A stretch of DNA of 29,484 nucleotides from a virus. Under the pieces are notes generated by a model. That model did not search any database, was not told where the DNA came from, and saw only the letters and a list, made by a program, of their open reading frames with translations. The position numbers and the translations under genes are program-made. Below are positions 5,373 to 27,982 of this stretch, one piece after another. The stretch lies in IMG/VR virus record IMGVR_UViG_3300007623_000026, positions 1-29,484 of that record; one strand, 5' to 3'. The stretch's first letter is position 1, and each line of letters opens with the position of its first letter.

Positions 5373-6013
5373 ACGTATTTGATGCTTTCGTAGCATACCA
5401 ATTTATTAAAATTCTCGTAACGCCTTGGGAAGAGACCGAAGCGTTTAAGTTGGGTATCATTGATGAAGATGGTAACAACCTTAAAAAGGCTAGAGAATTG
5501 AAATCGGGAGAAGAAAAGAAAGCATATACTATTTTCCATAGACTTATATTTAATGTTAAAAGATTCTTGGCGAAAGTTCCGGGTGGTCGCTCCAAACTAG
5601 CCTCATACGCGGCGGCACTTGCGCTTTTGAAAGAAGAATGTGAAGAGAACAAAGTTGATTTCGTTCTCATGGAAAACGCATTTATTCGCTTCATGGAGCA
5701 GGATTCTAAACAATGGTTAAATGAAGAGGTTACTGTAAATGCTGGTTCTGGTAACATTGCTGGAATTGGTGTTGGCGACAAAGGCGAACCCGGTGTAAGA
5801 ACTAGTAAGTTTGCTGGACATAAAGTAATTCATGTTGATAGGGATACTTTCACAAAACTTGTACAAGGTAAGCGCAAAAACAAGCACTGGTCAAGATATG
5901 TGAAAGAAGATGACCCAACAGGAATGGCGATTAAAAAACATTTCAGAAATTCCAAGAAACGACTATTCATGCAACTTGGTGACGATGGACCCATACAGGA
6001 AATCGTGCTATGA
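5369..6013 (+). CDS. Conserved T4-like phage hypothetical, 214 aa
   Basis: Residues 1-105 (YQFIKILVTPWEETEAFKLG, then FHRLIFNVKRFLAKVPGGRS and YAAALALLKEE) resemble a conserved uncharacterised protein of marine T4-like phages, usually found next to the type of gene that precedes it here. Residues 120-145 are Gly-rich (NAGSGNIAGIGVGDKGEPG), probably a flexible linker. The C-terminus is basic (VQGKRKNKHWSRYVK, KKHFRNSKKRLF) and could contact nucleic acid. It is coupled by ATGA overlaps on both sides. Related phage genes lie near structural operons. The role is unknown. Confidence 0.75.
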   Translation: MNVFDAFVAYQFIKILVTPWEETEAFKLGIIDEDGNNLKKARELKSGEEKKAYTIFHRLIFNVKRFLAKVPGGRSKLASYAAALALLKEECEENKVDFVLMENAFIRFMEQDSKQWLNEEVTVNAGSGNIAGIGVGDKGEPGVRTSKFAGHKVIHVDRDTFTKLVQGKRKNKHWSRYVKEDDPTGMAIKKHFRNSKKRLFMQLGDDGPIQEIVL

Positions 6014-16107: not shown

Positions 16108-17421
16108 ATGGAAAGCAAATCTGTAATTGAGATTTTAAAAGAATTAGAAAACGAATCGTCACGCAATGGAAAGATTGCCATATTAGAACGAGAAAAAGAC
16201 AATAAACTTCTCAGAGACGTTATAAAGCTTGCTTTAGATGAACATAAGATTTTCTATATGAAAAAAGTTCCTGAATATGATTCATCTATCCAAGGAATAG
16301 TCCCATTAAAAAAGTCTATCCAAGTATTCTCTATTCTAGAATCCAGAACTGTTACGGGTAATAAGGCTCAAGAAGTATTCTCTATGGCTATGGAGAATTG
16401 TATTCCAGAAGACCGAGAAGTAATGGAGAGAATACTACAAAAAGATTTAAAATGTGGAGTCAATATAGCAACTGCCAATAAAGTTTATGGCAAGAGCTTC
16501 CTATTGAAGTACCCTTGTATGTTAGCATCTTCACAAAACGATAAAAACCTTAGTAACATAGTTTTTCCAGCATATGGTCAAATAAAATATGATGGGATGC
16601 GAATTAATATTATTAGAAATAAAAATGGTAGCTTTGAATATAAAACCAGAAACGGCAGGGGCTTAGAAGCTAGTGTATGGGATGTTATTTTTGATGATGT
16701 TCCAAATGGCACAGTGATAGATGGCGAGGCTTTGGTACTAGGAGAAGGCGGAAAGCTATTAGATAGAAAAACAGGAAACGGTATCCTTAACAAAATAGTA
16801 AAAGGAACTGCTACTGATGAAGAGAAGAACTGTATTGTGTTTGTTGTTTGGGATATGGTAACACTTCAACAGTTTAGAAATGGTTCCTCTGCCGCACCAT
16901 ATGATTCTAGATTCGAAGCATTGAATATGGTTTTTCCTCCTGATGGTGAGGTTTCTACTCGCTGTAGGGTAGCTCAAACTTGGACAGTTGAAAGTTTAGA
17001 TTTAGCCAAAGAATTGTTTCAGCATTGTCTACAGATGGGTGATGAAGGTATTATTCTTAAGAATATAAAAGGCATTTGGGAAGACAAACGTTCCAAGAAC
17101 CTAGTTAAAATGAAAAATGAATTGGAAGCAGACTTGGTAGTAACTGATTGGCATGAAGGAACAGGAAAATACGAAGGATTGATGGGTTCAGTTACTGCTA
17201 AAACTGCTGATGGAAAATTGGAAGTCAATATAGGCTCTGGATTCACAGATGAACAGAGAAAGAAGCACACAAAAGATTACATTGTGGGTAAGATTGTGTG
17301 TACCAAATACAATGAGATTATCCAAGATAAGACTAAAGAAACTATGTCTTTATTTTTACCTATTTTTGTTGAAATTAGGGAGGATAAAAATGAAGCTAAT
17401 AATTTAGAGGAGCTTATGTAG
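16108..17421 (+). CDS. 30: ATP-dependent DNA ligase, gp30-like
   Basis: It seals nicks in duplex DNA in replication, repair and recombination. The adenylation motif I is KYDGMR with the nucleophile Lys at 160 (T4 ligase uses K159). Motif III is seen in FVVWDMVTL, motif IV in EGIILKN, and motif V in NLVKMKNELEADLVV. The C-terminal OB domain is marked by GLMGSVTAKTADGKLEVNIG and GFTDEQR. An N-terminal helical domain (1-140) is present, as in T4 gp30. 437 aa is somewhat shorter than T4 (487). The ribosome site is GAGGA. The stop overlaps the GTG of the next gene. Confidence 0.95.
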   Translation: MESKSVIEILKELENESSRNGKIAILEREKDNKLLRDVIKLALDEHKIFYMKKVPEYDSSIQGIVPLKKSIQVFSILESRTVTGNKAQEVFSMAMENCIPEDREVMERILQKDLKCGVNIATANKVYGKSFLLKYPCMLASSQNDKNLSNIVFPAYGQIKYDGMRINIIRNKNGSFEYKTRNGRGLEASVWDVIFDDVPNGTVIDGEALVLGEGGKLLDRKTGNGILNKIVKGTATDEEKNCIVFVVWDMVTLQQFRNGSSAAPYDSRFEALNMVFPPDGEVSTRCRVAQTWTVESLDLAKELFQHCLQMGDEGIILKNIKGIWEDKRSKNLVKMKNELEADLVVTDWHEGTGKYEGLMGSVTAKTADGKLEVNIGSGFTDEQRKKHTKDYIVGKIVCTKYNEIIQDKTKETMSLFLPIFVEIREDKNEANNLEELM

Positions 17422-17753
17422 TGGCATTTGATATTGAGCTTGTTGAAAAAAATATATCTGGAAACATTCATTTCTTTTGGAAAATTGATGGTGAGATTGG
17501 TCATAAATCTGATTTTCCCGAAGGGTTTGAAAGACTTGATGATGCCGAAGATTGGTTTCGTCAAAGTGTATTTTATGAAGAACATGTTTTTAACTCAGGC
17601 TCTAACCAAAATGCTAGGTGGAGAACTATTGATAGACGCTCCCACGAAGATAGAAGAAATAGGGTTTCTATAACAGACAGAAGAAAAAAACCACAAGGGA
17701 GGCGTTGGAAAGACCAATTGCGTAAAATGAGAGAAAAGTATAAAGACAAATAA
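17421..17753 (+). CDS. Hypothetical protein with Arg-rich tail, 110 aa
   Basis: GTG 17421 overlaps the ligase stop (TAGTG) and is supported by GAGGAG 8 bases before it. Residues 1-55 look like a compact alpha/beta fold (NISGNIHFFWKIDGEIGHKS). From about 66 the chain is very basic, with spaced pairs (WRTIDRRSHEDRRNR, TDRRKKPQGRRWKDQLRKM), a pattern common in short bacterial and phage proteins and likely to bind nucleic acid or anionic surfaces. It is translationally coupled to the ligase, so a DNA-end or ligase-related role is possible but unproven. Confidence 0.65.
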   Translation: MAFDIELVEKNISGNIHFFWKIDGEIGHKSDFPEGFERLDDAEDWFRQSVFYEEHVFNSGSNQNARWRTIDRRSHEDRRNRVSITDRRKKPQGRRWKDQLRKMREKYKDK

Positions 17754-17754
17754 T

Positions 17755-17762
17755 TATAAATA
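17755..17762 (+). promoter_or_regulatory. Orphan TATAAATA late-promoter core
   Basis: An exact late promoter core just after the stop of the Arg-rich gene. No gene of credible size starts before the intrinsic terminator at 17818-17847, so transcription from here would give a short RNA of about 80 nt. Chance occurrence in AT-rich DNA remains possible. Confidence 0.4.
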
Positions 17763-17817
17763 ATTTTATGGATATGGAACTTACAATAACTATTATTAAC
17801 CAGAAATAACTTTCCAA

Positions 17818-17847
17818 GGGACGGGTGTCAAAACTCGTCCCTTTTTT
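17818..17847 (+). terminator. Intrinsic terminator
   Basis: The stem GGGACGGGT pairs with ACTCGTCCC (9 pairs, one G-U) around the loop GTCAAA and is followed by six T. It ends the ligase-operon transcripts and isolates phoH. Confidence 0.9.
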
Positions 17848-17872
17848 ATTCTGTTTAATAATAATAGCCACT

Positions 17873-17899
17873 AATCCTATTCTCATATCCGATAGGATT
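17873..17899 (+). promoter_or_regulatory. Inverted repeat in the phoH leader
   Basis: AATCCTAT (17873-17880) and ATAGGATT (17892-17899) are perfect inverted copies separated by 11 bases, and end 2 bases before the AGGAG of phoH. It could be an operator or a leader hairpin. The short T run after it is too weak for a clear terminator. Confidence 0.4.
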
Positions 17900-17911
17900 T
17901 TAGGAGATTCT

Positions 17912-18682
17912 ATGACTAAAAAGCAGAGAAGGGCTCTCAAGCGCACAGAAAGAAACAGAACAAGTTCTTTTGAATCGTTTATTGAGACTAACCCAATGCC
18001 AATGATTCAAGACTATATTCCTCAACGTAACACCAAGCCTATAGAGGCTAGAACAGAAACACAAGGACATTATATACTGTCCATAGAAAACAAACACTTA
18101 ACATTCGGAGTTGGTCCAGCAGGGACAGGTAAAACATGGGTTTGCGGAGCACTAGCCGCAGAAGCATTAACAGAGGGTTTAACTGAAAGAATTGTTATAA
18201 CCAGACCAGTTCAGGAGGCTGGCGAAAACTTAGGATTCCTACCGGGAGAGATAGAAGATAAATTTGCTCCCTATTTTCAACCATTCAAAGATGTGCTTAT
18301 AGAGAGATTAGGAAAGGGTCATGTACAAGCACTGATGAAATCTGGAAGGATTGAAACCGCACCATTTGCCTATATGCGAGGTAGAACATTTAAAAATTGC
18401 TGGGTAATACTTGACGAAGCCCAGAATACAACACCAGAACAAATGAAACTTTTCTTGACACGAATAGGAGAAAACTGTAAGATAATTATTAACGGTGATT
18501 ATTCACAGAAAGACATTCGAGGAAAGTCTGGACTTGAAGATGCTATTCAGAGAGTTCAACATATCAGCGGATGTGAAGTAATTGAATTTTCACAAAAAGA
18601 TATTGTTCGCTCAGGACTAGTCCAGCGAATAGTAGAAGCCTATGAGGACTCACAAACTGTAAGAAGAGTCGCTTTTGGGTAA
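17912..18682 (+). CDS. phoH: PhoH-like P-loop ATPase
   Basis: A cytoplasmic ATPase common in marine phages. Its cell role is unsettled, with links to RNA metabolism and phosphate stress proposed. Walker A is GPAGTGKT at 68-75 and Walker B is VILDEAQNTTPEQM. Other PhoH-typical segments are ITRPVQEAGENLGFLPGEIE, IAPFAYMRG-like ETAPFAYMRGRTFKN, and NGDYSQKDIRGKSGLEDA. The frame is open from 17825, but that part spans the terminator. ATG 17912 follows AGGAG and gives the basic N-terminus MTKKQRRALKR. 256 aa is normal for phage PhoH. A strong terminator precedes it, and a promoter follows it. Confidence 0.95.
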   Translation: MTKKQRRALKRTERNRTSSFESFIETNPMPMIQDYIPQRNTKPIEARTETQGHYILSIENKHLTFGVGPAGTGKTWVCGALAAEALTEGLTERIVITRPVQEAGENLGFLPGEIEDKFAPYFQPFKDVLIERLGKGHVQALMKSGRIETAPFAYMRGRTFKNCWVILDEAQNTTPEQMKLFLTRIGENCKIIINGDYSQKDIRGKSGLEDAIQRVQHISGCEVIEFSQKDIVRSGLVQRIVEAYEDSQTVRRVAFG

Positions 18683-18685
18683 GGC

Positions 18686-18714
18686 TTGACAAGATAAGGA
18701 ATCTTTGATAAGCT
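18686..18714 (+). promoter_or_regulatory. Probable sigma70 promoter
   Basis: TTGACA (18686-18691), 17 bases, then TAAGCT (18709-18714) preceded by TGA as an extended -10. The predicted start near 18721 coincides with the first base of a perfect hairpin. Confidence 0.6.
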
Positions 18715-18720
18715 AATAAT

Positions 18721-18744
18721 AAGTGGCTATATTCGTAGCCACTT
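18721..18744 (+). promoter_or_regulatory. 5'-terminal mRNA hairpin
   Basis: AAGTGGCTA pairs perfectly with TAGCCACTT across a 6-base loop. It begins at the predicted start of transcription and lies before the AAGGAG of the next gene. Hairpins at the very 5' end are known to protect mRNA from decay. No long T run follows, so it is unlikely to terminate. Confidence 0.5.
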
Positions 18745-18764
18745 CTATAACAAGGAGTAATGAT

Positions 18765-18977
18765 ATGATTTTAGATAACACTTTGAACACAAAATCAGTG
18801 GATGAACTATTGGACCTTCAAGAACGAATTGAAAGCGATATTCAAAAAGAATCAGATGGTTATTTGGTACAAGCGTTAAGGAGCGACTTGGATGCCATAT
18901 CTTTAAAACTACAAGAACTTGTTAGCGAAGAGTATGCAGAACAAGATAGTTTGGTAGAATTCGTCAAAAGTTTTTAG
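18765..18977 (+). CDS. Hypothetical helical protein, 70 aa
   Basis: ATG 18765 is preceded by AAGGAG at 8 bases. The open frame from 18723 crosses the leader hairpin and is not used. The protein is small, acidic and helical (ELLDLQERIESDIQKES, then LKLQELVSEEYAEQDSL), probably forming a helical hairpin or coiled coil. It has its own promoter, as is common for early phage genes that act on the host. Function unknown. Confidence 0.65.
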   Translation: MILDNTLNTKSVDELLDLQERIESDIQKESDGYLVQALRSDLDAISLKLQELVSEEYAEQDSLVEFVKSF

Positions 18978-19006
18978 CCCCATAAATACTCATAAATGAC
19001 CGTATA

Positions 19007-19058
19007 AGCGATTTTCTTTTTTGACCTGTTGTGGTATTGGTCACTAGAGAAAATCGCT
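19007..19058 (+). ncRNA. Structured leader or small RNA element
   Basis: The outer arms AGCGATTTTCT (19007-19017) and AGAAAATCGCT (19048-19058) pair perfectly over 11 bases. Inside, TGACC (19022-19026) pairs with GGTCA (19039-19043) around a 12-base loop. Two asymmetric single-stranded joints separate the helices. No T run follows, so it is not an ordinary terminator. It sits 22 bases before the next GTG start. Confidence 0.5.
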
Positions 19059-19080
19059 CTAATCTATTGGTAGGGAAGTT

Positions 19081-19727: not shown

Positions 19728-19762
19728 TTATATCTTTATAACAAATAAATCTAATAAAATGC

Positions 19763-19790
19763 TTGATTTATTTTAGAAATTCGCTATAAT
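19763..19790 (+). promoter_or_regulatory. Sigma70 promoter of cassette 1
   Basis: TTGATT (19763-19768), 16 bases, then exact TATAAT (19785-19790). The transcription start is expected near 19797, the beginning of a leader shared with the next cassette. Confidence 0.75.
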
Positions 19791-19794
19791 TATA

Positions 19795-19816
19795 ATATAA
19801 CGAATTGAGAGAGAAA
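19795..19816 (+). repeat. Shared 22-bp leader, copy 1
   Basis: Identical over 22 bases to 20089-20110. It contains CGAATTGAGAGAG and supplies the ribosome site (GAGAGAG, 8 bases before ATG 19822). It starts at about the predicted transcription start. Confidence 0.85.
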
Positions 19817-19821
19817 ACACT

Positions 19822-20028: not shown

Positions 20029-20055
20029 TTTTTTCGCGATTTTGTTAAAAAACGC

Positions 20056-20084
20056 TTGACAAATAATAAAAGATGCCTTATACT
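20056..20084 (+). promoter_or_regulatory. Sigma70 promoter of cassette 2
   Basis: Exact TTGACA (20056-20061), 17 bases, then TATACT (20079-20084). The expected start near 20091 is the beginning of the second shared leader. Confidence 0.85.
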
Positions 20085-20088
20085 TACC

Positions 20089-20110
20089 ATATAACGAATT
20101 GAGAGAGAAA
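20089..20110 (+). repeat. Shared 22-bp leader, copy 2
   Basis: Second exact copy of 19795-19816. It places GAGAGAG 8 bases before ATG 20116, the same spacing as in copy 1, and so decides the start of the following gene. Confidence 0.85.
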
Positions 20111-20575: not shown

Positions 20576-20601
20576 AAAAGTGGCTTCTAGCCACTTTTTT
20601 T
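20576..20601 (+). terminator. Intrinsic terminator
   Basis: AAAAGTGGCT (20576-20585) pairs perfectly with AGCCACTTTT (20589-20598) around TCT, with a continuous T run to 20601. It separates the small cassettes from the structured RNA region downstream. Confidence 0.95.
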
Positions 20602-20898
20602 CGCATAATGCATTGAAAAATCTAGAAATTTTAGTTTGTCTAAATAATTTCAGATAGTAAAGACAATAGTTAATTTCGTGACAATTGTTCGCTATCACTC
20701 GATACGCTGGCGGGGAGGTTGGCGGTTGGAACAGGAGCCCCAATTGTGAATTATTTTAAGGATTAACTTAATTCACAACTATGGATTTTTACTCAAGGAT
20801 GAGTGGAGTGGTTCATGGATGAATCACTGTCCATAGCGTGACGGGGGGAGGTGTCACGAAAAAATAGGTACCCTTAATAGTAAATAAGGAGAACTACT
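20602..20898 (+). other. 297-bp non-coding region
   Basis: No credible protein gene lies here. Bases 20602-20676 are very AT-rich and should hold the start of transcription. I see no strong sigma70 promoter, but TCTAAATA at 20639-20646 is one base from the late core. Bases 20677-20858 are strikingly richer in G and highly structured (see the RNA entry). Bases 20859-20898 form an unstructured A-rich stretch that ends in the AAGGAG of the exported-protein gene. Confidence 0.7.
20677..20858 (+). ncRNA. CsrA/RsmA-binding RNA candidate (CsrB/RsmZ-like)
   Basis: Four local hairpins expose GGA. H1, 20744-20778: 10-bp stem TTGTGAATTA/TAATTCACAA, with an inner TTAA-GGA-TTAA. H2, 20791-20804: ACTCA-AGGA-TGAGT. 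H3, 20807-20828: 9-bp stem, loop TGGA. H4, 20837-20858: CGTGAC/GTCACG, loop with GGGGGGAGGT. H2 and H3 read TCAAGGATGA and TCATGGATGA, exact fits to the RsmE/CsrA consensus (A/U)CANGGANG(U/A), each with an ANGGAN hexaloop closed by C-G. Nine GGA triplets occur between 20714 and 20849. A stem CTATGGA/TCCATAG (20779-20785, 20830-20836) encloses H2 and H3. CsrB-type RNAs sequester CsrA, whereas the same sites in a leader would control the next gene. No terminator follows, so the leader reading is fully open. Confidence 0.6.
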
Positions 20899-21408
20899 AT
20901 GAAAAACTTTACTAAACTAGCACTTGCAACTTTCACTGCAACTACTCTCATGGCAACTACAGCACCAATGGCTTCTGCGGCTGAATTCAAAATCGAAGGT
21001 GCTACTGAAACTCTAGCATCTGGTTGCTCATTCCTAAACGTACAGGACGGTACAATGGCATGGGATGAGGCTAATGGCATCTGGTACACTACTGGCGATG
21101 GTCAGGTTCGTGTTAAAACTCGTGACGTTATCTCTGTAGTCGTTGACAACAACAAAAAGCTACAGGATGCTCTAGGGGATGCTGATACTCTAGTTGATGT
21201 TGCTTACGATAACTCTACCCTAACTTGGGAAAACCCACGCAAATCACCAGCTTCTGCTGTAAACACTAACGATTACACAGTAACTGGTCTAGAAGGTGGT
21301 AACGTACTAAACCTAAAAATTGACCATACATTGACAACTTCTGACAGCTATGTAGCTGAATCAAACACTAACTACCATCTAGTAAATGTTGTTACTTGTA
21401 ACATCTAA
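20899..21408 (+). CDS. Exported pilin-like protein, 169 aa
   Basis: A clear Sec signal peptide (MKNFTKLALATF, hydrophobic core, cleavage after ASA at 27) predicts export to the periplasm or surface. The mature part is Thr, Asn, Asp and Val-rich and beta-prone, with just two Cys, one near the start (C43 in ASGCSFLNV) and one near the end (C167). Such a pair would bridge the first and last strands, as in fimbrial subunits or spore-coat-U-like domains. This resemblance is structural and weak in sequence. Codon use (AAC, CTA, GGT, GCT) and AAGGAG suggest high expression. The leader contains CsrA-type sites. A chaperone-like gene follows. Confidence 0.7.
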   Translation: MKNFTKLALATFTATTLMATTAPMASAAEFKIEGATETLASGCSFLNVQDGTMAWDEANGIWYTTGDGQVRVKTRDVISVVVDNNKKLQDALGDADTLVDVAYDNSTLTWENPRKSPASAVNTNDYTVTGLEGGNVLNLKIDHTLTTSDSYVAESNTNYHLVNVVTCNI

Positions 21409-21418
21409 AGGAAAATAA

Positions 21419-21805
21419 ATGCTTATTAAATCATTATTAATGAGCGTCTTAGCGGCACTGGCATTCAATGCCAGTGCTCATTCTCAGACGCCGGGATACC
21501 AAAAAGAAATGGCATATTCTGAAACGCATTCTATGGTATATGAAATAAAAAATGAGTTCGATTTTCCTATTGTTCTCAAGGTCAATGTTTTTGAAAAAGA
21601 TGGAATAACACCATCAACAGATTGGACTATCGACAGAGAGCTATTTAAAATGGTTCCGGGTAGCATAAAGAGATTTGCTGTTACATTTAAGACTGAAGAA
21701 GAACGTAAGGTAATTGTTTGCTCTGTACTACATAGGGTAGGATATGAAGAAGAGATACCAACTACTATTACTCGCGTTTGTTCTAGGTTGTGGTTATATA
21801 AATAG
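21419..21805 (+). CDS. Exported PapD-like chaperone N-domain, 128 aa
   Basis: The signal peptide (MLIKSLLMSVLAALAFNASA, cleavage after Ala 20) is followed by about 108 residues that resemble the first immunoglobulin-like domain of pilus chaperones. The sequence has VYEIKNEFDFPIVLKVNVFE, then a variable loop, FKMVPGSIKRFAVTF and KVIVCSVLHRV, which follows the family order N-x-x-x-x-P, then L-x-PG, then strand G. The second domain of true PapD chaperones is absent. Two Cys near the C-terminus could form a disulfide. It lies 10 bases after the pilin-like gene, the order expected of subunit and chaperone. Its end overlaps the next gene by 62 bases. Confidence 0.6.
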   Translation: MLIKSLLMSVLAALAFNASAHSQTPGYQKEMAYSETHSMVYEIKNEFDFPIVLKVNVFEKDGITPSTDWTIDRELFKMVPGSIKRFAVTFKTEEERKVIVCSVLHRVGYEEEIPTTITRVCSRLWLYK

Positions 21806-22151
21806 TACCCATGGCGCGGCAAATGTCACTGATAGGTTTAAAACACATTCAGGGACAGAATGTGAAAGGTCTCATAACTCAGGGAAAGAGTTAGAGCTTA
21901 GTGTAATAGCAGACCCAGAAACAGATGAGAAAAAAGTCATGCTAACAATGACAGTAGAATTCGGAAGAGGTTCATTTGAATCACAACGAATAAACTGTCA
22001 AACAACCATGTTGTTGGAGCAAGATAGAATGTATCTTGAAAACGAAAGATTAAAACTGGAACTGGAGTTGCTAAAACGCAAAGTCAATGGTGACCCCAAT
22101 GCTGGTCAAACTTCGGCTTCTAGTACAACTACGGACGGTGACGATTGGTAA
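21744..22151 (+). CDS. Exported protein or lipoprotein, 135 aa
   Basis: The signal (MKKRYQLLLLAFVLGCG) carries a possible lipobox VLGC with Cys at 16. A type I cleavage near THGA is an alternative. The mature part has a strand-rich domain with two Cys (TECERSH and RINCQTT) and then a charged helix (LEQDRMYLENERLKLELELLKRK), likely a coiled coil, ending in a Ser/Thr/Asp tail. No in-frame Met exists between the signal and residue about 63, so the 62-base overlap with the previous gene must be real if this protein is exported. It probably belongs to the same exported set. Function unknown. Confidence 0.65.
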   Translation: MKKRYQLLLLAFVLGCGYINSTHGAANVTDRFKTHSGTECERSHNSGKELELSVIADPETDEKKVMLTMTVEFGRGSFESQRINCQTTMLLEQDRMYLENERLKLELELLKRKVNGDPNAGQTSASSTTTDGDDW

Positions 22152-26840: not shown

Positions 26841-26848
26841 TATTTATA
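26841..26848 (-). promoter_or_regulatory. T4-type late promoter core, minus strand
   Basis: The plus strand reads TATTTATA, which is TATAAATA on the minus strand. It lies 48 bases upstream of the first gene of the fibre-like operon and two bases from the -35 box of the divergent sigma70 promoter. Confidence 0.7.
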
Positions 26849-26879: not shown

Positions 26880-26923
26880 GGTTCATAACACTAAAACTAT
26901 TTATCATGTACAAAGGAGTCATC

Positions 26924-27982
26924 ATGACAGAAGTTCTCTTGCAAGGACAAAATTATCTATTCTACTTAATTTTCGTAATGATTATCGTAGGAATAATCAA
27001 AGAAAATGAATATTTTGTAGATTTCGTAAATATCCTAATTAAATTTGTTCCATCTAAACGGGCAGTAGTGGCGCTTGTTAGTTTATTTGGTGGAATACTC
27101 CCCATACCCGGAAGGGTCACAGTTTCTGCTGGACTACTTGATACGATTGCTCCGATAGATAATGGTGACACATGCTCAAGGAAATCAAGGTCGAAATTTG
27201 GAATTATAGATTATTTGTCAACTCACATTTATTATCTATTTTCTCCATTGGAAAAAACAATAATAATACCAATGGCTGTACTGTCCTTGACATATTTGGA
27301 AATCCTTCAATACATGCTACCCCTAATTGTAATTTCTTTAGGATATGTTGTCTGGTATATTTTCGGAAAATTGACTGAAAAAGATATTCAAATTAACACT
27401 TCTGATAAGCATATTGATTGGCTAAGATTCACAAGTGGTTCATTGCCTGTTTTTGTCGGTATTGGATTTTTAATTGCGGGGTTTCAGGGTCATCTGGTAT
27501 TTGGTTTGTTGGCTATTTATTATATCATAAAATCTCAAACTTATTGTCCTCGGTGTTGGTTGGAATTCGTTAATTGGAAACTGGTCGGGCTTCTGGCTAT
27601 TGTAATCGCCCTTGGAAATTACATCAAACTGTATGATGGCGATATTCATGCATTTATAGAGAACGGTGCTTTTGATATCACTACCCCAGTTGGCTTTATT
27701 ACAATATCCAGTGTTGCTTTCTTAGCGAGCTTTGCCATGGGTTCATCATCTAAATATGCTGGTATTGTCGCTCTCTTGGCGACTATCTATGGAGTTGAAT
27801 GGCTAACTTGGTTTGTGGTTATTGATTATGCTGGTTACCTACTATCTCCCACTCACAAATGTACACATATCGGCAGAATGTATTTTGGAACACGATTCCG
27901 AGATTACTACACTGTTCTCGGCATATGGTGTATTCTTATGACACTTATCTCCTTTGTAGGATTTAATCCCATATTTTATTAA
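26924..27982 (+). CDS. DUF401-like integral membrane transporter, 352 aa
   Basis: The ATG at 26924 follows AAAGGAG, and the open frame from 26906 includes that ribosome site. About eight to ten membrane segments are visible. Two half-helix-like loops stand out: GGILPIPGRVTVSAGLLDTI (56-75) and VIDYAGYLLSPTHKC (299-313). This pair resembles the LPxPGG and GYxGxLLSPxHxC loops of the DUF401/AF0261 family, related to ion and organic-anion transporters. In that family PGG is usual, and here it is PGR. The CPRC pair at 208-211 is unusual. Substrate cannot be told. A strong sigma70 promoter suggests early expression. Such a transporter in a phage is uncommon. Confidence 0.65.
   Translation: MTEVLLQGQNYLFYLIFVMIIVGIIKENEYFVDFVNILIKFVPSKRAVVALVSLFGGILPIPGRVTVSAGLLDTIAPIDNGDTCSRKSRSKFGIIDYLSTHIYYLFSPLEKTIIIPMAVLSLTYLEILQYMLPLIVISLGYVVWYIFGKLTEKDIQINTSDKHIDWLRFTSGSLPVFVGIGFLIAGFQGHLVFGLLAIYYIIKSQTYCPRCWLEFVNWKLVGLLAIVIALGNYIKLYDGDIHAFIENGAFDITTPVGFITISSVAFLASFAMGSSSKYAGIVALLATIYGVEWLTWFVVIDYAGYLLSPTHKCTHIGRMYFGTRFRDYYTVLGIWCILMTLISFVGFNPIFY

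Follow-up and report, generated by a model that had tools for sequence, protein, structure and literature searches.

What is the role of an array of GGA-bearing hairpins that lies directly upstream of three genes for exported proteins in a virus genome? A sequence-only reading of the segment at 20677-20858 had proposed a phage-encoded RNA with the architecture of CsrB or RsmZ, acting either as a sponge for CsrA or as a leader that makes the exported genes respond to CsrA. The window (the whole stretch of DNA analysed, an IMG/VR virus record 29,484 bases long with a GC content of 35.7%) encodes ThyX, ribonucleotide reductase, an ATP-dependent DNA ligase, PhoH, a T4-type primase, a RuvC-like resolvase and tail-fibre proteins. 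Because of this gene content and the presence of the T4 late-promoter consensus TATAAATA ahead of several genes (exact copies, at 2164, 4283 and 17755 and at 26848 on the minus strand, precede other genes), its source is, as judged from sequence, a T4-like aquatic phage, and the record is probably without most of this phage's genome. The primase has its best match in Methylophilales phage Melnitz (43%), and ThyX in Limnohabitans phage DC31 (69%) and Melnitz (61%). Since phages like Melnitz have a tmRNA with a glutamine riboswitch (PMC9004378), a tRNA or tmRNA identity was considered for the element; a search found none.

The window has several other features of note. A DUF401-type membrane protein is encoded at 26906-27982 and is also present in a few cyanophages (Synechococcus phage S-H25, 39.5%). 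Two adjacent small genes, at 19728-19821 and 20029-20109, share the leader end ATATAACGAATTGAGAGAGAA downstream of sigma-70-like promoters, an apparent repeated control region. At 18978-19080 a long inverted repeat (GCGATTTTCT...AGAAAATCGC) lies between a late-promoter-like CATAAATA and the next gene.

The GGA-rich element lies between a terminator with a late-promoter-like octamer and the start codon of the cassette, so it is most simply read as an mRNA leader, about 245 nt long, for the three downstream genes. The features of this region are as follows.

20576-20601, plus strand: intrinsic terminator that ends the upstream unit (AAAAGTGGC-TTCTA-GCCAC-T7), read from the sequence
20639-20646, plus strand: late-promoter-like octamer TCTAAATA, one mismatch to the T4 consensus
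20652-20898, plus strand: putative 5' leader (about 245 nt, from a presumed transcription start) of the exported cassette
20713-20740, plus strand: 28-nt motif GGGNGG-N14-AGGNRCCC, copy A
20744-20778, plus strand: hairpin 1, arms TTGTGAATTA/TAATTCACAA, with AAGGAU in its apical part (GGA 20760)
20779-20836, plus strand: closing stem CTATGGA/TCCATAG, enclosing both hexaloop hairpins
20792-20803, plus strand: hairpin 2, with C[AAGGAU]G as hexaloop; candidate for high-affinity binding of CsrA/RsmA
20812-20823, plus strand: hairpin 3, with C[AUGGAU]G as hexaloop; candidate for high-affinity binding of CsrA/RsmA
20837-20858, plus strand: hairpin 4, CGTGAC/GTCACG with a G-rich loop, its 3' arm contested by 20677-20683
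20846-20873, plus strand: 28-nt motif, copy B; alignment with related contigs begins at 20855
20885-20895, plus strand: Shine-Dalgarno region (AAGGAG), with predicted partial pairing to CCUUA just upstream
20899-21408, plus strand: P1, exported, 169 aa, of no known family, with an apparent signal peptide
21419-21805, plus strand: P2, exported, 128 aa, PapD/DraB-type pilus-chaperone-like domain by predicted structure
21744-22151, plus strand: P3, exported, 135 aa, no known family

A pattern scan for terminators missed the one at 20576-20601, probably since its A/T tract was counted as stem. From 20858 to the ATG at 20899, neither the scan nor reading of the sequence finds a terminator. A search of the window and of both leader types (the second is described below) against Rfam gave no match to any family, and BLAST of the leader against annotated phages was likewise without a match.

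The density of GGA triplets is as the sequence-only reading described it, nine in about 150 nt, at positions 20714, 20728, 20734, 20760, 20783, 20797, 20805, 20817 and 20847. Across the whole window this plus-strand peak of nine per 150 nt is reached only by intervals starting at 20700-20714, and the minus strand peaks at six. To speak of nine sites overstates the number of accessible GGAs, because four (20728, 20734, 20783 and 20805) are largely base-paired in the predicted ensemble; about four of the nine are accessible, chiefly 20760, 20797, 20817 and the G-rich 20714. The four hairpins with GGA in the loop are reproduced by the minimum-free-energy fold of 20677-20858, in which four terminal loops on stems of at least 4 bp contain GGA (shuffle mean 0.24; none of 500 shuffles equalled it), and the full leader, 20652-20898, has five GGA hairpin loops (shuffle mean 0.29; 0 of 500). 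The fourth hairpin competes in predicted folds with a long-range stem, 20677-20683/20852-20858. The 182-nt segment folds with a z of -5.5 against dinucleotide shuffles, and no other stretch has strong GGA-loop hairpins clustered so densely in a scan of both strands of 115 phage sequences totalling 1.6 Mb. Loop enrichment, strong fold and top rank all count in favour of recognition by CsrA.

The form of the loops is as informative as their number. CsrA and RsmE bind best to an ANGGAX hexaloop placed directly on a stem (PMC4005645), and the two hairpins said to fit the RsmE/CsrA consensus, with an ANGGAN hexaloop closed by C-G, are located at 20792-20803 (CTCAAGGATGAG) and 20812-20823 (TTCATGGATGAA), both matching (A/U)CANGGANG(U/A). 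Such 10-mers occur seven times on the plus strand of the window, two of them in the leader, and two or more arose in 16 of 20,000 leader shuffles. In the predicted structure these two candidate Csr/Rsm sites are C[ANGGAU]G hexaloops, the high-affinity ANGGA loop form, and their GGAs are separated by 20 nt, within the 10-63 nt over which paired sites can be bridged by CsrA; the SELEX consensus of Escherichia coli CsrA is RUACARGGAUGU (PMC7652899). The Shine-Dalgarno AAGGAG also contains a GGA, which is predicted to lie outside any stable hexaloop; no hexaloop overlaps the Shine-Dalgarno, itself a generic GGA, and this counts against control by CsrA. Overlap of a site with the Shine-Dalgarno or the start is frequent among CsrA-controlled leaders without being universal.

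The downstream genes form a cassette that we infer to be exported and, from a structural model of moderate confidence, possibly pilus- or adhesin-like. Apparent signal peptides, judged by eye, are present in all three of P1, P2 and P3. The model of P2 has a mean pLDDT of 61.7 (about 70-84 in the core), and the PDB entries that it matches best are of pilus chaperones (DraB, E 6.5e-5; also Caf1M, CsuC and FimC); the AlphaFold model of P1, with a pLDDT of 34, is unusable. Neither Pfam nor PHROG has a family that matches P1 or P3, and BLAST of P1 and P2 against annotated phages returned none. A profile of P1 found nothing in GTDB genomes, as did a profile of P2 in 369 genomes of one class. In IMG/VR, matches to P1, P2 and P3 are confined to three contigs.

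These contigs (L002-L004) are nearly identical to one another, and with the same cassette they provide a second leader type. They align with the window at 82% DNA identity from position 20855 onward; upstream of this point they cannot be aligned to it and have a different neighbouring gene. In L002 a late-promoter-like octamer, TTTAAATA (5784-5791), is followed directly by AAGGAU hairpins near 5811, 5842 and 5871, and then by two copies of the 28-nt motif, at 5884-5911 and 5946-5973. At each of the three AAGGAU sites of L002-L004, the predicted ensemble leaves the second G and the A unpaired to at least 0.95, and the L002 leader has two GGA terminal loops where 0.17 are expected (p 0.014); that these signals recur despite the lack of alignment counts in favour of CsrA. 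The loss of GGA loops in related phages had been proposed as one observation that would overturn the idea, and what is seen is a loss of leader sequence with retention of GGA hairpins. All six loops of the two leader types read A(A/U)GGAU, which carries the SELEX-type GGAU and is also counted in favour, whereas a mimic of the ribosome-binding site should prefer AAGGAG; the U after GGA may derive partly from A-U closing pairs in palindromic hairpins. Counted on the other side are the weakly non-random overall fold of the L002 leader (z about -1 to -2), its single match to the 10-mer consensus, and the absence from its prediction of the partial Shine-Dalgarno pairing seen in the window. Because only two leader types are present in the collection, the window and L002-L004 amount to one independent comparison.

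The second shared feature is the motif GGGNGG-N14-AGGNRCCC, which occurs twice in each of these two otherwise unalignable leaders and in 0 of 20,000 shuffles of either. On a first scan the pattern, which was derived from these four copies, was absent elsewhere in 1.87 Mb of loci; in IMG/VR it is found in the three contigs and in four GC-rich, coding-looking chance matches. No known RNA family in Rfam accounts for it. Two other candidates for a common feature were rejected: a G-quadruplex is predicted for copy A only, and GGAG sites of the kind cleaved by T4 RegB, several of which are present in the window leader, are absent from that of L002.

By analogy, the closest known architecture is the flaA leader of Campylobacter jejuni, whose two CANGGANG hexaloops are separated by 21 nt and which is both a target and a titrator of CsrA (PMC4894983). 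The phage leader similarly has two adjacent CANGGANG hexaloops, with a GGA distance of 20 nt, and similarly precedes a gene or genes for an exported filament-type protein; it differs in belonging to a phage, in being longer and more structured, in its extra GGA hairpin and 28-nt motif, and in that binding is putative. The E. coli pgaABCD leader, with six CsrA sites, is likewise long, multi-site and ahead of genes for an exported surface structure (PMC7652899), whereas the sites of the phage leader are mainly in hairpin loops. As cited in PMC4894983, the Salmonella fimAICDHF leader, which titrates CsrA, also has fimbria-type genes downstream and, unlike the phage leader, is chromosomal. Hairpin 3, AUGGAU, is one base removed from the ACGGAU hexaloop of Pseudomonas hcnA that is bound by RsmE (PMC4005645), although the hcnA hairpin lies at the ribosome-binding site and hairpin 3 elsewhere. 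Several GGA loops are also found in the small RNAs CsrB, CsrC, RsmY and RsmZ, from which the phage element differs in having no Rfam match, no terminator of its own, and a position in an mRNA leader.

These differences bear on the proposed sponge, a stand-alone phage small RNA that would titrate CsrA/RsmA in trans. Its multiple GGA loops fit such an RNA, and the long-range stem could close a discrete RNA of 182 nt, whose end may be made by processing instead of by a terminator. The covariance search recommended by the sequence-only reading found no Csr/Rsm family even at E values up to 10, about four accessible loops are few for a sponge (though more than in shuffles), and the 3' end of the element is part of the conserved cassette leader. 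Together with the missing terminator, this speaks against a sponge, which we regard as very unlikely; of the likeness to CsrB/RsmZ, the non-random GGA loops of the best-binding form remain and membership of the small RNA family does not. A leader whose main role is titration, through an abundant late mRNA that would free host CsrA targets in the manner of Campylobacter flaA or Salmonella fimAICDHF, would account for the two-hexaloop design, which in flaA is itself both CsrA-repressed and CsrA-titrating (PMC4894983), and for the late-promoter-like octamer upstream; the results are equally compatible with simple control in cis, and we consider titration as the main role quite improbable. Chance, by which a G-rich structured spacer would bear functionless GGA loops, draws some weight from there being only two independent leader types and from patterns picked partly after the sequence had been viewed; set against the 0 of 500 shuffles that reached the GGA-loop count, and the recurrence of GGA loops in the second leader, it has very little probability.

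A more substantial rival is a structured leader with some other role, as a ribosome standby site, a set of Shine-Dalgarno-like AAGGA lures for the 30S subunit, a protection against nucleases, or the binding site of an unknown phage or host protein; the part that matters for function may be the 28-nt motif common to both leaders, not the GGA loops. The Shine-Dalgarno core AAGGA is present in five of the six loops, the 28-nt motif, twice in each leader type, exceeds all shuffles and lacks a known family, and such a leader would function in any host, including those without CsrA. What it does not predict is a U after GGA in six of six loops, or two ANGGAX hexaloops at bridging distance, and we regard it as a real possibility, if a rather doubtful one.

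The choice between this alternative and CsrA turns in large part on the host, since CsrA must be supplied by host or phage; if neither has it, the structured leader, bound by another ligand, becomes the preferred explanation. The gene was detected in all four gammaproteobacteria checked; a sample of the class to which a Halieaceae genome belongs has it in 235 of 274 genomes. Against the CsrA reading, it was found in none of the 25 betaproteobacterial genomes checked, and in neither the window nor 29 related phage records, mostly fragments. The host evidence is ambiguous: phage gene similarities (ThyX, primase) lean towards betaproteobacterial hosts, and an IscU tree, not decisive for host, places the IscU of the L002 phage among gammaproteobacteria, in a group of weak support to which Methylophilaceae also belong. 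In a further record (IMGVR_UViG_3300026123_000041, 17361-18809) a phage-borne iscU is split by an apparent intein, and its joined halves are up to 85% identical to beta- and gammaproteobacterial IscU. CsrA proteins are themselves encoded by 30 of 2,517 phages, and csrA-carrying phages that infect csrA-less Burkholderia exist (PMC7366521).

The best explanation, which we hold tentatively and at a little short of an even chance, is CsrA-type control in cis of the exported cassette by its leader. We hold it most likely because hairpins 2 and 3 conform to the ANGGAX and bridging rules and the flaA leader has a similar spacing; the CsrA-responsive leader is the better of the two options originally offered, with CsrA binding, the transcription start and the regulation itself all being what we infer. 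A CsrA/RsmA-type dimer, provided by the host or by the unsequenced remainder of the phage, would bridge the two hexaloops and, via other GGAs up to the Shine-Dalgarno AAGGAG, would block the ribosome or remodel the leader, such that the exported proteins would be produced only when CsrA is limiting; the abundant late transcript would also titrate CsrA as a side effect. In an extended and, taken as a whole, unlikely version, the late leader would be a decoy for host CsrA, which represses until transcript abundance exhausts the protein, so that host CsrA targets would be freed and the pilus-like cassette switched on together, with fast turnover of the leader leaving only the GGA loops and the 28-nt motif to persist.

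The open-licence papers searched describe no phage RNA with the build of a CsrA target or decoy, and phage small RNAs were reviewed in 2025 without mention of Csr (PMC12197685). A phage-encoded pilus-chaperone-like cassette is itself unusual. If the binding is real, the leader would link infection by a T4-like phage to the host switch that governs carbon, motility and biofilm, and would present a case of RNA-protein recognition that is kept while the sequence of the leader turns over.
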